Source: Paludibacter sp. (GTDB lineage Bacteria > Bacteroidota > Bacteroidia > Bacteroidales > Paludibacteraceae). From it: a stretch of DNA of 64,000 nt. Location of the stretch: NCBI GenBank assembly GCA_028710895.1, contig JAQTTH010000006.1, positions 1 to 64,000 of the forward strand, in the 5' to 3' direction. Position numbers and translations under genes: made by a program. Below the pieces are notes generated by a model that saw only the letters and a program-made list of their open reading frames with translations, did no database searches and was not told where the DNA came from. This document shows positions 14,255 through 17,940 of the stretch, piece by piece. Within the stretch, counting starts at the first letter, position 1. Each line of letters starts with the position of its first letter.

Positions 14255-15313
14255 TTATTTCATAATCTCTTGTTGATGACGAACAGATTCTTCGTGAATG
14301 GCAACAAGTACCGTTTTCATGAATTCACCATCCATGCCCATTTGTTCAGCCTGAGTGATGCGGTTTTTCAAAATTTCATCATAACGCTGTGATTGTAAAA
14401 TCGGCATATTATGCTCTTTCTTGTATGTTCCGATTTCCTCAGAAACACGCATACGACGAGCTAACAATTCGAGCAAGCTGTTATCCAGTTCATCGATCTG
14501 ACGACGTAAAGCTGTCAGATTTTCTGTTGACTGTGACATATCACGAATCACCAATGTGCTTAGAATTAAATCCAATACCTCAGGGGTAACCTGCTGAGCT
14601 GCATCACTCCATGCTTTTTCGGGATTGCAGTGCGACTCAATAATCAAACCATCAAAGTTCAGGTCCATAGCTTGCTGGCAAAGTGGAGCAATCAGTTCAC
14701 GTTTCCCACCAATGTGACTTGGATCACAAATAATCGGCAAATTAGGAATCTGACGTTTCAATTCGATTGGAATATGCCATTGTGGAAGGTTACGGTAAAT
14801 CTTTTTGTCATAGGTACTGAAACCACGATGAATAGCACCAATTTTACGAACTCCTGCATTGTAGATACGCTCAATGGCTCCAATCCACAAATCCAAATCA
14901 GGATTCACAGGATTTTTTACTAATACCGGAATATCAACACCTTCAAGCGCATCAGCAATTTCCTGTACAGCAAAAGGGTTAGCTGAAGTACGTGCACCTA
15001 CCCAAAGAATATCAACTCCATGTGCCAAACATTCACGAACATGGGCAGCTGTAGCAACTTCTACGGCAGTATACATTCCTAATTCAGATTGTACGCGCTT
15101 AAGCCATGGTAGCCCTTGCACGCCAATTCCTTCGAACCCACCCGGTTTGGTACGTGGTTTCCAGATTCCGGCACGAAATATTTTTATGCCACGGGCATGC
15201 AATCTGCGTGCCGATTCCATTACCTGTTCTTCAGTTTCCGCACTACAAGGTCCGGCTATTACAAGAGGACGCTTGGCGTCAACTCCGGGGAGTAAAATTG
15301 ATTCTAATTCCAT
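14255..15313 (-). CDS. Bifunctional DAHP synthase / chorismate mutase (type II)
   Basis: 352 residues. Residues 1 to about 250 form a KDO8P-synthase-like DAHP synthase (VIAGPCSAETEEQVMESARRL, KPRTKPGGFEGIGVQGL, VGARTSANPFAVQEIA, VKNPVNPDLDLWIGA, ICDPSHIGGKRELI). Residues about 262-352 form an AroQ-type chorismate mutase (TALRRQIDELDNSLLELLARRMRVSEEIGTYKKEHNMPILQ ... SVRHQQ). The fusion joins the first committed reaction of the shikimate pathway to the first one of the Phe/Tyr branch. Third gene of the operon pheA - aminotransferase - this gene; 51 bp after the aminotransferase. No prephenate dehydrogenase (tyrA) follows, unlike the usual Bacteroides arrangement. Confidence 0.95.
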   Translation of the reverse strand: MELESILLPGVDAKRPLVIAGPCSAETEEQVMESARRLHARGIKIFRAGIWKPRTKPGGFEGIGVQGLPWLKRVQSELGMYTAVEVATAAHVRECLAHGVDILWVGARTSANPFAVQEIADALEGVDIPVLVKNPVNPDLDLWIGAIERIYNAGVRKIGAIHRGFSTYDKKIYRNLPQWHIPIELKRQIPNLPIICDPSHIGGKRELIAPLCQQAMDLNFDGLIIESHCNPEKAWSDAAQQVTPEVLDLILSTLVIRDMSQSTENLTALRRQIDELDNSLLELLARRMRVSEEIGTYKKEHNMPILQSQRYDEILKNRITQAEQMGMDGEFMKTVLVAIHEESVRHQQEIMK

Positions 15314-15364: not shown

Positions 15365-16531
15365 TTAGTTGACTAATTGTTTCACTCTCTCCAATGCTTC
15401 AGAGAGCATGTTGTCGTTTGCACAAAGCGAAAGTCGGATATATTGATTTCCTTTATCTCCAAAAATAAATCCGGGTGTAATAAATACCTTTGCTTCATAA
15501 AGCACTTTGTCGGCCAGCTCACCGCTATCGGCATAAGTAGAAGGAATTTTACCCCAAAGGAACATTCCCACCTGCGTTTCGTCAAATGTACAACCTAATA
15601 CAGTCATAATTTCTTCGGCTAAATGACGACGGTGTTTGTATAAATTGATATTCATTTCGCGATGCCATTCTTCCGAATTGTTTAATGCTGCAATAGCAGC
15701 TACCTGCATAGGTTTAAACTGACCGCTATCAATATTGCTCTTCACTTTCAGTACCCATTGTACGAATTCTGCATTCGAAGCTAACACTCCCATACGCCAA
15801 CCCGGCATATTGTGCGACTTACTCATCGAGTTCAGTTCAATACAAATATCTTTTGCTCCTTCAACTTGTAAAATGCTCAGTCTGTTTTCGTTCAGAATGA
15901 AGCTGTACGGATTATCATTACAAATAACGATGCTGTGTTTTTTCCCAAAAGCCACCAGTTTTTCAAAAAGTTCGGGAGTGGCACTTGCACCTGTAGGCAT
16001 ATTCGGATAATTGACCCACATTAATTTAACGCCTGACAAATCCATTTGTTCAAGTGCATCAAAATCGGGTTGCCAATTATTATTCTCATCCAAATCGTAG
16101 GTCAAAACCTTTGCCTGAACCAGATTACTAACCGATGAATAAGTAGGATAGCCCGGATTGGGTACCAAAACCCCATCACCCGGATTGAGAAAGGCCAATG
16201 AAATATGCAAAATACCTTCCTTTGAGCCAATAAGTGGTTGCAATTCATTTGCCGGGTTCAATTCCACCTTGAACCATTTTTTGTACCAGTCGGCAAAAGC
16301 TTTACGCAGTTCAGGAATTCCCACATAAGGCATATAACCATGTGCGTTCGGTTCTAAAGCCGATTTGCTCAGTGCTTCTACAGTTTCTTTCGAAGGTGGC
16401 AGGTCGGGACTTCCAATACCCAGGCTGATTACATTCATGCCTTTGGCATTCATTTCGGCCACTTCTTTTAGCTTAGTCGAAAAATAGTATTCAGAGATTG
16501 AATTTAATCTTTCAGCAGGTTTAATATTCAT
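15365..16531 (-). CDS. Class I PLP aminotransferase of aromatic operon
   Basis: 388 residues, fold type I aminotransferase close to the LL-DAP/aspartate group. PLP-binding lysine lies in ELNSMSKSHNMPGWRMG (about 233-249); NPNMPTGA-type asparagine segment WVNYPNMPTGASATP (about 167-181) and the C-terminal FIRLSLCANDNMLSEAL-like arginine segment are present. Placed between pheA (27 bp upstream) and the DAHP synthase-chorismate mutase, it most likely transaminates prephenate, phenylpyruvate or hydroxyphenylpyruvate. Substrate cannot be settled from sequence alone; diaminopimelate aminotransferase activity is the alternative. Confidence 0.9.
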   Translation of the reverse strand: MNIKPAERLNSISEYYFSTKLKEVAEMNAKGMNVISLGIGSPDLPPSKETVEALSKSALEPNAHGYMPYVGIPELRKAFADWYKKWFKVELNPANELQPLIGSKEGILHISLAFLNPGDGVLVPNPGYPTYSSVSNLVQAKVLTYDLDENNNWQPDFDALEQMDLSGVKLMWVNYPNMPTGASATPELFEKLVAFGKKHSIVICNDNPYSFILNENRLSILQVEGAKDICIELNSMSKSHNMPGWRMGVLASNAEFVQWVLKVKSNIDSGQFKPMQVAAIAALNNSEEWHREMNINLYKHRRHLAEEIMTVLGCTFDETQVGMFLWGKIPSTYADSGELADKVLYEAKVFITPGFIFGDKGNQYIRLSLCANDNMLSEALERVKQLVN

Positions 16532-16558: not shown

Positions 16559-17404
16559 TTATTCAGTCGGCGTAACTCCTTCAGGATATTCACCTAAACT
16601 TTTCAATTCGTTTATAAGTGGCTTAATAGCAGCTAATGATTGTTTGTAGCGCTCCAGATCGTCGAATTTAAAATCGACGTAGAACTGATATTCCCATTCC
16701 CGACCAATAATCGGCAGAGATTGAATTTTTGTCAGATTAATACCATAAAACGAGAAAACAGACAACACTTTCGACAAACTTCCTTCGGCATGTGGTAAAG
16801 TAAAAACGATAGAAGCTTTATTAATTGCATCATCCTTTTGAATTTCATCCACAACCCACGAATTACCAAAAATGAGAAACCGCGTAAAATTACGTTTATT
16901 TGTTTCAATACCCCTTGCAAGAATATTTAATCCATAAATTTCGGCTGCTCTCACACTACAAATAGCTGCATTTCCCATTAGATTCTGAGCAGCAATATCG
17001 CGTGCAGCAAGCGCAGTATCTTCATGTTCAACCACTTTCACACCCGGCAATGTTCCCAAAAAATCGGCACATTGCATCAACGCTATCGGGTGCGATTGCA
17101 CTTCTTTTATATCGTGAATTGTTTGTCCGGGTAATGCTGCCAGACAGTGTGAAACACGTAATTTATATTCGCCGGCAATCGGAAGTTTATGCTCTTTGAG
17201 TAATTCGTAGTTTGGCAACAGGCTCCCGGCGATTGTATTTTCGATAGCCATAATGCCCACCACATTGGAATCTTTTTTTATGGCCGAAAAGATATCTTTA
17301 AAAGTAATACATGGAATGATTTCAACTTCTTCACCTGCAAAAAAATTCTCTGCTGCAATGCCGTGATAGGCTCCCAATCCTCCCTGAATAGCTACTCGTT
17401 TCAT
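16559..17404 (-). CDS. pheA: Prephenate dehydratase
   Basis: 281 residues, stand-alone prephenate dehydratase, converting prephenate to phenylpyruvate. Catalytic domain about 1-185: IQGGLGAYHGIAAENFF, MAIENTIAGSLLPNYELL and the TRF motif (Thr174-Arg175-Phe176). ACT domain about 195-270 with EGSLSKVLSVFSFYGINLTKIQSLP, the usual Phe-feedback site. It is the first structural gene of the aromatic operon. Upstream lies a promoter (17585-17614), a Phe/Tyr-rich leader peptide (17503-17556) and a terminator hairpin (17419-17453) just ahead of its ATG, so expression is expected to be set by attenuation. Confidence 0.97.
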   Translation of the reverse strand: MKRVAIQGGLGAYHGIAAENFFAGEEVEIIPCITFKDIFSAIKKDSNVVGIMAIENTIAGSLLPNYELLKEHKLPIAGEYKLRVSHCLAALPGQTIHDIKEVQSHPIALMQCADFLGTLPGVKVVEHEDTALAARDIAAQNLMGNAAICSVRAAEIYGLNILARGIETNKRNFTRFLIFGNSWVVDEIQKDDAINKASIVFTLPHAEGSLSKVLSVFSFYGINLTKIQSLPIIGREWEYQFYVDFKFDDLERYKQSLAAIKPLINELKSLGEYPEGVTPTE

Positions 17405-17418
17405 ATTGTTTGTTGACT

Positions 17419-17453
17419 AAAAAAAAATCCCACTCATAATTGAGCAGGATTTT
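17419..17453 (-). terminator. Attenuator terminator of the aromatic operon
   Basis: On the minus strand the RNA would fold AAAAUCCUGCUCA-AUUA-UGAGUGGGAUUUU, a 13-bp stem with two G.U pairs, followed directly by a run of nine U (17427-17419). This sits 15 bp before pheA. Its 5' arm (17450-17442, AUCCUGCUC) is exactly complementary to GAGCAGGAU at 17502-17494, immediately after the leader-peptide stop, which provides a competing antiterminator (9 bp perfect, 12 of 13 when extended). Confidence 0.88.
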
Positions 17454-17493
17454 CATGTATTGTTTATTTATAGTTGTTTTTTACATAAAGAAT

Positions 17494-17502
17494 ATCCTGC
17501 TC
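17494..17502 (-). promoter_or_regulatory. Antiterminator segment 2 of aromatic attenuator
   Basis: GAGCAGGAU starts at the first base after the leader-peptide stop codon. It can pair with the 5' arm of the terminator at 17442-17450. A ribosome resting on the stop codon would cover this segment and let the terminator form; a ribosome stalled upstream on Phe/Tyr codons would leave it free to form the antiterminator. Confidence 0.8.
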
Positions 17503-17556
17503 TCACTTACTAAAGTAAAAGTAAAAATAAAAGTATGTAAAAAATCGGTTTACCAT
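17503..17556 (-). CDS. Aromatic operon leader peptide (Phe/Tyr attenuator)
   Basis: A 17-codon frame, MVNRFFTYFYFYFYFSK and stop, too short for ordinary gene finding. Ten of 17 residues are Phe or Tyr (six Phe, four Tyr), arranged as FF then YFYFYFYF, the composition expected of a leader peptide that measures charged tRNA-Phe and tRNA-Tyr. It lies 29 bp downstream of a good promoter and just upstream of competing antiterminator and terminator stems, in front of pheA, an aminotransferase and the DAHP synthase-chorismate mutase. Classical attenuation logic fits: scarcity of Phe or Tyr stalls the ribosome in codons 5-15 and opens the operon. The peptide itself needs no function. Confidence 0.87.
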   Translation of the reverse strand: MVNRFFTYFYFYFYFSK

Positions 17557-17584
17557 AATTGTGTCTTTTTTTGCTTAGACGCTG

Positions 17585-17614
17585 CAAAAGTAATATATTT
17601 TTCAGTTATTACAA
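17585..17614 (-). promoter_or_regulatory. Promoter of the aromatic operon
   Basis: On the minus strand TTG (17614-17612), 19-bp spacer, TACTTTTG (17592-17585) fits the Bacteroidota TTG-N19-21-TAnnTTTG pattern. It gives a leader of about 170 nt that contains the Phe/Tyr peptide and the attenuator stems. Confidence 0.8.
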
Positions 17615-17712: not shown

Positions 17713-17907
17713 TTATAACTCTTTAGCCATTCTGTTTCTCATATCCCTGAGGATATAAATGATTGGCAAAATACCAATTGTATTGAAAACAGCGATGCAA
17801 ATAAACCAAGCAAGTTGGTTATTACGGGCAGCTTTCCAAAGAGCAATTACCTTCCATGTAAAATCCCAAAGAATTAAAATTACAAACAGCCATTCATAAG
17901 GAGCCAT
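17713..17907 (-). CDS. DUF5652-like small membrane protein
   Basis: 64 residues if started at the ATG at 17907 (MAPYEWLF), or 75 if started at 17940 (MCCNLENFHWKMAP). Two hydrophobic helices: PYEWLFVILILWDFTWKVIALWKAAR and QLAWFICIAVFNTIGILPIIYI. The WKVIALWKAARNNQLAWFI segment and the NTxGILPIIYI end match DUF5652 and PLD-nuclease N-terminal two-helix domains. Function unknown. Stands alone between the aromatic operon promoter region and the arabinose regulator, pointing away from the latter. Confidence 0.75.
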   Translation of the reverse strand: MAPYEWLFVILILWDFTWKVIALWKAARNNQLAWFICIAVFNTIGILPIIYILRDMRNRMAKEL

Positions 17908-17940
17908 TTTCCAATGAAAATTTTCAAGATTGCAGCACAT

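Follow-up and report, generated by a model that had tools for sequence, protein, structure and literature searches.

We propose, with a probability of about 0.9, that the pheA operon of Paludibacter sp. is preceded by a ribosome-mediated transcription attenuator that would sense charged tRNA-Phe and tRNA-Tyr together. The switch would probably turn the genes on when Phe or Tyr runs short. Judged from the sequence and its comparison with relatives, the element is a real and conserved attenuator of the classical type with an unusual joint Phe/Tyr specificity, its response being predicted. Sequence and comparison show a leader and mutually exclusive helices, both of them conserved, covariation in the helices, and a Phe/Tyr codon content that tracks the genes under control. 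In our reading, the most informative part of this comparison, and its best evidence, is that of split operons.

The leader upstream of pheA

The element lies in the window, the whole 64,000-nt stretch of contig JAQTTH010000006.1 that was analysed. On the minus strand, the order is promoter, a 17-codon frame encoding MVNRFFTYFYFYFYFSK, GAGCAGGAU, terminator, pheA, and the genes of an aminotransferase and of a DAHP synthase-chorismate mutase (Table 1). Re-reading of the coordinates confirmed the promoter-like TTG-N19-TACTTTTG, the 17-codon frame, the segment after the stop codon and the complementary hairpin arm described in the original prediction. The nine T that had been ascribed to the hairpin are present, and the scan counts 14 pairs rather than 13. 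We take the promoter to be of the Bacteroidota TAnnTTTG type. The leader contains 4 Tyr codons, and the 5' arm of the terminator, ATCCTGCTC, is the exact complement of segment 2, GAGCAGGAT.

Table 1. Features of the pheA leader and operon in the window. 1:2, 2:3 and 3:4 denote helices between the numbered segments.
Feature	Position	Strand	Basis or comment
Promoter-like TTG-N19-TACTTTTG	TTG 17614-17612, 19 nt, TACTTTTG 17592-17585	-	Read from sequence
Leader ORF MVNRFFTYFYFYFYFSK, 17 codons, putative regulatory Phe/Tyr codons	ATG 17556-17554, TGA 17505-17503	-	
Segment 1, outer, UUUUUUACAUA, codons F-F-T-Y	17534..17544	-	Fold; pairs with 17477-17487
Segment 1, inner, F/Y codons	17520..17526	-	Pairs with 17500-17507 around stop codon
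Segment 2, GAGCAGGAU (DNA GAGCAGGAT), antiterminator 5' strand	17494..17502	-	Starts at first base after stop
UAUGUAAAAAA, 3' strand of outer 1:2 helix	17477..17487	-	Fold
Segment 3, AUCCUGCUC (DNA ATCCTGCTC), common to antiterminator and terminator	17442..17450	-	
Segment 4, GAGUGGGAU, terminator 3' arm	17427..17435	-	
Terminator hairpin, 14 pairs	17454-17423	-	Scan
U9 tract (nine T)	17419..17427	-	First U is last base of segment 4
pheA, prephenate dehydratase	16559..17404, ATG at 17404	-	PF00800, E 2.4e-53
aspC, aminotransferase class I/II	15365..16531	-	PF00155, E 3.6e-60
aroGQ, DAHP synthase-chorismate mutase fusion	14255..15313	-	PF00793 + PF01817
Gene of a 75-residue DUF5652 protein	17713-17940	-	PF18893; upstream of attenuator

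As in classical attenuators, a short ORF rich in the codons of the product lies behind the promoter, an intrinsic terminator precedes the first structural gene, pheA, and antiterminator and terminator are mutually exclusive, with one strand in common. The folding z-score of the leader was -5.17, and none of 200 shuffled sequences was as stable. In the fold made for the ribosome model below, part of UAUGUAAAAAA also joins a lengthened 2:3 hairpin. Scans of 8.5 kb returned 8 terminator sites versus 7.1 in shuffles and 24 promoter sites versus 24.1. The pattern of an 8-codon F/Y run matched five times in the 4.9-Mb genome, the remaining four matches being two F-only pyrimidine tracts; since a reversed control also gave five matches, the rarity of the run was dropped as an argument. 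Conservation, not rarity, is what we take as decisive for a real leader.

The operon in the window does not include tyrA, of which a single match sits on another contig without a leader. Because the aminotransferase and the DAHP synthase-chorismate mutase should serve the synthesis of both Phe and Tyr, a mixed Phe/Tyr leader fits such an operon. A genome of the same family (G528) is alike, with a leader of five Phe and five Tyr and without a tyrA match within 4.6 kb downstream. A search for other aromatic leaders in the genome of the window with model R1 gave one strong match (109 bits; the next, 47.7), and the weaker matches were inspected for F/Y-rich frames. Neither tyrA nor hisG of the window's genome has a matching leader, and trpE starts directly after another frame. 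Elsewhere in the genome, a likely branched-chain leader, MNSQRIYTVLVLVVLLLVQSQK, precedes ilvD (L212:1224-1292, contig C15 of G000); it stands behind a promoter-like TATCTTTG box and is followed by a terminator, judged by eye. This is probably another attenuator.

Conservation and covariation among near relatives

A scan of named genomes gave 563 confirmed pheA loci, of which the best 80 were used; their genera include Paludibacter, Dysgonomonas, Proteiniphilum, Fermentimonas, Parabacteroides and Bacteroides, among others. Two loci (L051 and L073) in which the contig ends less than 62 nt upstream of pheA were left out. The resulting alignment, A1, thus comprised 79 sequences: the window and 78 of the best 80 of 563 loci. 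An aromatic leader and a terminator precede pheA in all 79, with leaders such as MVNRFFTYFFFYFYFSR, MKNFSYTYFFFFYFYFKR, MNRFSFTYYFYYFYFSKVKAGVCM and MNLFTYTFYFFFYFYFSNKVEREFVCVK. The distance from the leader start codon to the end of the terminator is 130-165 nt throughout, and 78 of the 79 have TAnnTTTG within the 90 nt that precede the leader start, 73 of these with TTG 17-22 nt further up.

The alternation of Phe and Tyr to which the original prediction had pointed is not the constraint, since the aromatic runs of relatives read YYFYYFYF, FFFFYFYF or FFFFFF. The last three codons are TTT in 79/79, TAC in 75/79 and TTT in 79/79. The TAC fraction is 0.85 in the last five leader codons, 0.40 in earlier leader codons and 0.38 in pheA. 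As UUU-UAC-UUU is nearly fixed at synonymous sites, RNA pairing probably constrains the end of the run in addition to its coding role. Further upstream in the run, to judge from codon usage, the constraint is probably mainly one of coding.

In 18 of the 79 leaders (L024, L029, L030, L037, L061-L063, L068-L070, L072, L074-L078, L080 and L081, from Parabacteroides, Bacteroides, some Dysgonomonas and others), the frame reads on through segment 2, for example as SKVKAGVCM, so that segment 2 itself would be translated there. Nine leaders of Proteiniphilum/Fermentimonas type start with GTG (L040, L041, L042, L044, L047, L048, L049, L054 and L055). In seven of them the run is FWFYFYF, and the position of its Trp codon is occupied in relatives by Phe, Tyr, Gly or Cys.

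Segments 2, 3 and 4 co-vary, as exemplified by GAGCAGGAT/ATCCTGCTC, GGGCAGGAT/ATCCTGCCC, AGACAGGAT/ATCCTGTCA and GAGCGGGAG/ATCCCGCTC. In the 3:4 terminator, 98.4% of the cells of A1 were paired, versus 43-59% when the strands were slid and 89.5% in shuffles, none of 500 being as high; 112 cells had both sides changed. In the 2:3 antiterminator, 88.0% of the cells were paired, versus 27-46% when slid by 1-3 columns and 82.7% in column shuffles, again with none of 500 as high. Both sides had changed in 50 cells of this helix; however, the number of its pairs with double changes, four, was reached by 107 of 500 shuffles, which counts against covariation in 2:3. Both signs that the original prediction had expected of such an alignment, namely conserved aromatic codons (79/79) and compensatory changes in 2:3 and 3:4, were found.

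In the outer 1:2 helix, codons for Thr or Ala followed by an aromatic residue (ACA/GCA-UA) pair with UAUGU/UAUGC. Its five conserved pairs were paired in 97.2% of cells, versus 2.5-78% when slid, with 26 cells double-changed; one of these pairs is A-U in 40 of the 79 sequences, G-C in 23, G-U in 8 and U-A in 1. The inner 1:2 helix, which involves the last F-Y-F codons, was paired in 97.6% of cells, a value as high in 150 of 500 shuffles, and had one double-changed cell; its covariation score was 0.307 versus a shuffled mean of 0.300, with none of 500 shuffles as high. Of the candidate 1:2 protector hairpin, the outer helix shows covariation and the inner one hardly any. The 2:3 helix could be lengthened by at least 7 pairs in 46/79 leaders versus 39/1580 shuffles, a count that was not used as an argument because low-complexity A/T sequence may inflate it.

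Ribosome position and alternative folds

With both amino acids in ample supply, the ribosome would reach the stop codon and cover GAGCAGGAU, so that AUCCUGCUC would pair with segment 4 and transcription would end before pheA. With Phe or Tyr scarce, the ribosome would stall within the Phe/Tyr run and leave GAGCAGGAU free to pair with AUCCUGCUC before segment 4 is made. Once 2:3 had formed, RNA polymerase would continue into pheA and the genes of the aminotransferase and DAHP synthase-chorismate mutase. In this scheme, we infer the ribosome positions, the order of folding and the response to amino acids.

The scheme was modelled with a footprint assumed to comprise the A-site codon and 11 nt downstream. 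In a transcript reaching up to segment 4, the probability of 2:3 was 0.98 with the A site on any of codons 1-14, 0.76 on codon 15, 0.42 on codon 16 and 0 on codon 17 or the stop codon. Within this model, the antiterminator can form while the ribosome is held up in the Phe/Tyr run, and a ribosome at the stop codon prevents it. The zero at the stop codon agrees with the earlier proposal that a ribosome there masks exactly segment 2, given the assumed 11 nt.

Some folding results count against this scheme. Without a ribosome, the transcript up to segment 4 likewise prefers 2:3 (0.98), and the full leader prefers 1:2 plus 3:4. For the complete leader at equilibrium, the terminator wins with a ribosome on codons 1-8 (3:4, 0.96-1.00), and folds are mixed with one on codons 9-14 (2:3, 0.34-0.69). 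The model therefore needs 2:3 to form first and to persist. In 47 of the 79 leaders, the stability of 2:3 equals or exceeds that of 3:4. The window is not among them, with -13.8 (2:3) versus -15.0 (3:4); with other end points, its values are -16.6 versus -15.9.

Phe/Tyr content follows gene content

According to the gene order of the fetched loci, most leaders precede joint operons, in which pheA stands with the aminotransferase, DAHP synthase-chorismate mutase and/or tyrA. The first three leaders found before pheA alone, MTRFFTHFFFFFTQQ, MYFDFVFGFLFCFPKS and MRRNSFRFFFFFAFFFC..., are nearly Tyr-free in the aromatic run, the two Tyr of the last standing after the run. A prediction on the loss of Tyr was set down, and 19 further loci were then taken, 14 from the same order and five from other orders. 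In the same-order loci, 10/10 joint-operon leaders had at least two Tyr, and the sole pheA-alone leader, MITINNSFFFFFFRSDPEKGL, had none. The five loci from other orders, four of them pheA alone, yielded no leader.

The combined set held 53 leaders in 71 loci, with L268 left out at a contig end. At the threshold, a leader was present in 49 and absent in 11 of the 60 joint-operon loci, and present in four and absent in seven of the 11 pheA-alone loci. At most one Tyr occurred in the best 12 residues of 4/4 pheA-alone leaders versus 1/49 joint-operon leaders (Fisher p 1.7e-5, uncorrected for relatedness). Conversely, 48 of the 49 joint-operon leaders had at least two Phe and at least two Tyr in these residues; one joint-operon leader (L240) has one Tyr. 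On a PheA tree, an average of 3.9 of four independent pairs over random pairings pointed the same way; one of these pairs derives from the loci added after the prediction, and a sign test on four pairs has a p floor of 0.125.

If the codons are the sensors, genes split off from pheA should carry Tyr leaders. We sought aroGQ in eight genomes, comprising seven of the 11 pheA-alone genomes and the joint-operon genome G528, and examined seven aroGQ regions from six split genomes; the G525 copy, at a contig end, was left out. A leader stood on the separate aroGQ/tyrA operon in five of the six split genomes: MIKNISVFAYFYYYFYFSKK (G515), MNNTFGYYAFYYYFFYNN (G505), MVNFEFYYGFYYYLD (G585), MATQLFVYSYYFYFSWTS (G593) and MKFTAVNGFYFWFYYFGGFTGAER (G558). 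All five are followed by a terminator, judged by eye. For L302, L303 and L306, an internal ATG behind a promoter-like box was taken as the start; the longest frame gives the same best 12 residues. No leader was found on the aroGQ/tyrA side of G012 or at a second DAHP synthase locus of G585 (L305).

Tyr outnumbered Phe in the best 12 residues of four of these five leaders, the exception being that of G558 (L306; five Phe, three Tyr). The median Y/(F+Y) was 0.00 for pheA alone (n=4), 0.44 for joint operons (n=49) and 0.57 for the aroGQ/tyrA side (n=5); the latter differed from pheA alone with p 0.009 and from joint operons with p 0.018, relatedness ignored in both. Three genomes (G515, G505 and G585) carry leaders on both halves, each with its own bias; G593 and G558 had no detectable leader before pheA alone. 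Overall, the suggestion of the original prediction that the leader senses both Phe and Tyr is supported by the loss of Tyr on pheA-alone leaders and by more Tyr on most split-off tyrA/aroGQ operons.

These data bear on the alternative that the leader senses mainly one amino acid, or a general slowing of translation, and that the second aromatic residue is merely tolerated. Such tolerance might arise because a single base separates UUU from UAU/UAC and either codon fits a U-rich RNA strand, and the near-fixation of the end codons, even synonymously, points to constraint by RNA pairing. By contrast, synonymous codons vary freely further upstream in the leader (TAC 0.40), hardly any Tyr occurs in the best 12 residues of all four pheA-alone leaders, and the Tyr share is higher on split-off tyrA/aroGQ operons. 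We consider this alternative unlikely and favour joint sensing of Phe and Tyr.

Two further observations concern these loci. In G585, the leader MVNFEFYYGFYYYLD before aspC-tyrA-aroGQ has just upstream of it another aromatic frame, MMTTYTFSYFYYWFRTP, which carries its own terminator-like hairpin (L304, contig C22); L304 is perhaps two attenuators in tandem. By raw count, a Trp codon occurs in 15 of the 49 joint-operon leaders (e.g. L182, L183, L194 and L173). Since Trp synthesis also draws on DAHP synthase, the leader might sense all three aromatic amino acids.

Distribution in the class

For a wider sample, pheA upstream regions were taken from genomes found with PF00800. Leaders with at least seven F/Y in 12 residues occurred in 24/27 loci of the same order (25/27 at a threshold of at least six) and in 11/24 loci of other orders of the class (14/24 at least six). 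Outside the class, none of 30 loci had at least seven; these were selected as the top scorers among 340 phylum genomes with pheA rather than at random. In dinucleotide shuffles, the threshold of at least seven was reached by 0/162 for the same order, 2/144 for other orders and 0/180 outside. By raw count, all 39 leaders with at least six F/Y are followed by a T-run hairpin (-10.8 to -25.3 kcal/mol). A 2:3 duplex beyond shuffles (p<=0.05) was found in 31/39, and in 35/39 the start of the best duplex falls in the interval from 34 nt upstream to 8 nt downstream of the end of the leader stop codon.

Of 44 same-order genomes with pheA, 27 were in the first survey, 14 in the follow-up and three (that of the window, G230 and G347) already in the set. 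Among the 14 follow-up loci, 11 have a leader (at least six F/Y), two have none and one is cut by a contig end. A phylum scan with R1 at E<=0.01 matched 58 of 395 genomes, many weakly; 25 of the 29 loci from the scan (L090-L118) carry pheA by tblastn. The joint operons with no leader at threshold (L232, L255, L256, L258, L261, L262, L263, L265, L272, L277 and L283) may have other regulation or a sub-threshold leader, of which MKLTQTYFWFYPTLSTGG at L255 may be one.

The peptides of the wider sample vary widely in sequence, length and C-terminus. This variation bears on the possibility that the nascent peptide FYFYFYF itself arrests the ribosome, as in TnaC-type systems, in which the nascent peptide causes arrest, rather than scarcity of charged tRNA doing so. 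The repetitive aromatic peptide is unusual, and its C-terminal end is similar across the 79 aligned leaders. Nevertheless, the wide differences in the larger sample, a Phe/Tyr make-up that tracks gene content, and a frame that may either stop before segment 2 or read through it make arrest by the peptide very improbable, less likely still than sensing of one amino acid. It is hardly credible that an F/Y-rich frame stands by chance next to an ordinary terminator or a structured 5' UTR that does not attenuate: runs of eight F/Y codons are no rarity in this genome, but the element is conserved across much of the class and its alternative helices covary, which contradicts chance.

In extending attenuation by Phe and Tyr codons beyond the near relatives, we lean towards a class-wide Bacteroidia family, so far unnamed. 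The leader of such a family would act as a modular codon counter whose Phe/Tyr, and perhaps Trp, content is reset by evolution to the downstream enzymes, so that split halves would keep mostly the codons of their own product.

Relation to known systems

A textbook counterpart, pheL-pheA of E. coli, is a leader-peptide attenuator that works by classical attenuation, with Phe as the sole control amino acid. The present element resembles it in its short Phe-rich leader, exclusive helices, U-tract terminator and downstream prephenate dehydratase. It differs in having Phe and Tyr codons together, another sequence and a promoter of Bacteroidota type, and its operon includes the aminotransferase and DAHP synthase-chorismate mutase and, in many relatives, tyrA. 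Mixed-codon leaders are known from E. coli thrL (Thr and Ile) and ilvL (Ile, Val and Leu). As in these, one leader would serve several amino acids of one operon; the amino acids are others, and in the present case the set of codons tracks the operon when it is split. Vitreschak and colleagues reportedly mention Bacteroidetes/Chlorobi in a 2004 survey.

In the window, no Rfam family matched at gathering score. Two candidates were rejected on this basis: the E. coli Phe leader family, with no match at gathering score in a window whose leader has four Tyr codons and not Phe alone, and the T-box riboswitch, with no match of any kind at that score. Six relatives gave four sub-threshold Rfam matches only, to unrelated families (E 0.32-0.92).

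In the literature, pheA is named among the attenuators of E. coli and Salmonella (PMC1183508). The remark in the original prediction that it knew of no described leader with this YFYFYFYF pattern in Bacteroidota is too strong. Table 7 of a 2005 study lists a putative attenuator, predicted and taken from a website, before B. thetaiotaomicron pheA>hisHb>aroAIb-aroQ>tyrA (PMC1173090). The operon is of the same type as here and belongs to a bacterium of the same taxonomic order, and the attenuator is very likely the same element. The entry names no leader peptide, codons or distribution, and the word 'leader' occurs 0 times in the main text of that study. A 2021 study of Flavobacterium psychrophilum describes a structured 5' element before pheA that is conserved in Flavobacteriaceae and has no Rfam hits, and finds strong indications that amino-acid operons are preceded by leader-peptide attenuators (PMC9723704). 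That element shares with ours the gene and the lack of an Rfam hit; its description in that study states no peptide, Bacteroidales link or joint Phe/Tyr sensing.

Other published elements stand nearby. Bacteroid-trp RNA (RF01692) is a candidate cis-regulatory RNA of Bacteroidetes (PMC2864571); its name suggests a trp operon, and the window has no Rfam match to it. In B. thetaiotaomicron, 5' UTRs with small frames are reminiscent of leader peptides (PMC7366714). The authors of a 2010 paper stated that they were aware of no leader-peptide system beyond Proteobacteria and Actinobacteria (PMC2965389). Among the matches listed in our search, most of them judged by title and the start of the abstract, there was no published description of a joint Phe/Tyr leader in Bacteroidota. 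Overall, the kind of attenuator is known, and this member is largely undescribed in the searched literature.

Significance

Sensing of aromatic amino acids in Bacteroidota is little described in the literature searched. The conserved leader provides a direct handle on the regulation of Phe and Tyr synthesis in these bacteria, a phylum prominent in the gut. The split operons amount to a natural experiment in which codon content tracks gene content, and their comparison tests the central premise of attenuation, namely that sensing is done by the codons. The leader codons thereby offer a DNA-based reading of which amino acid an operon answers to.
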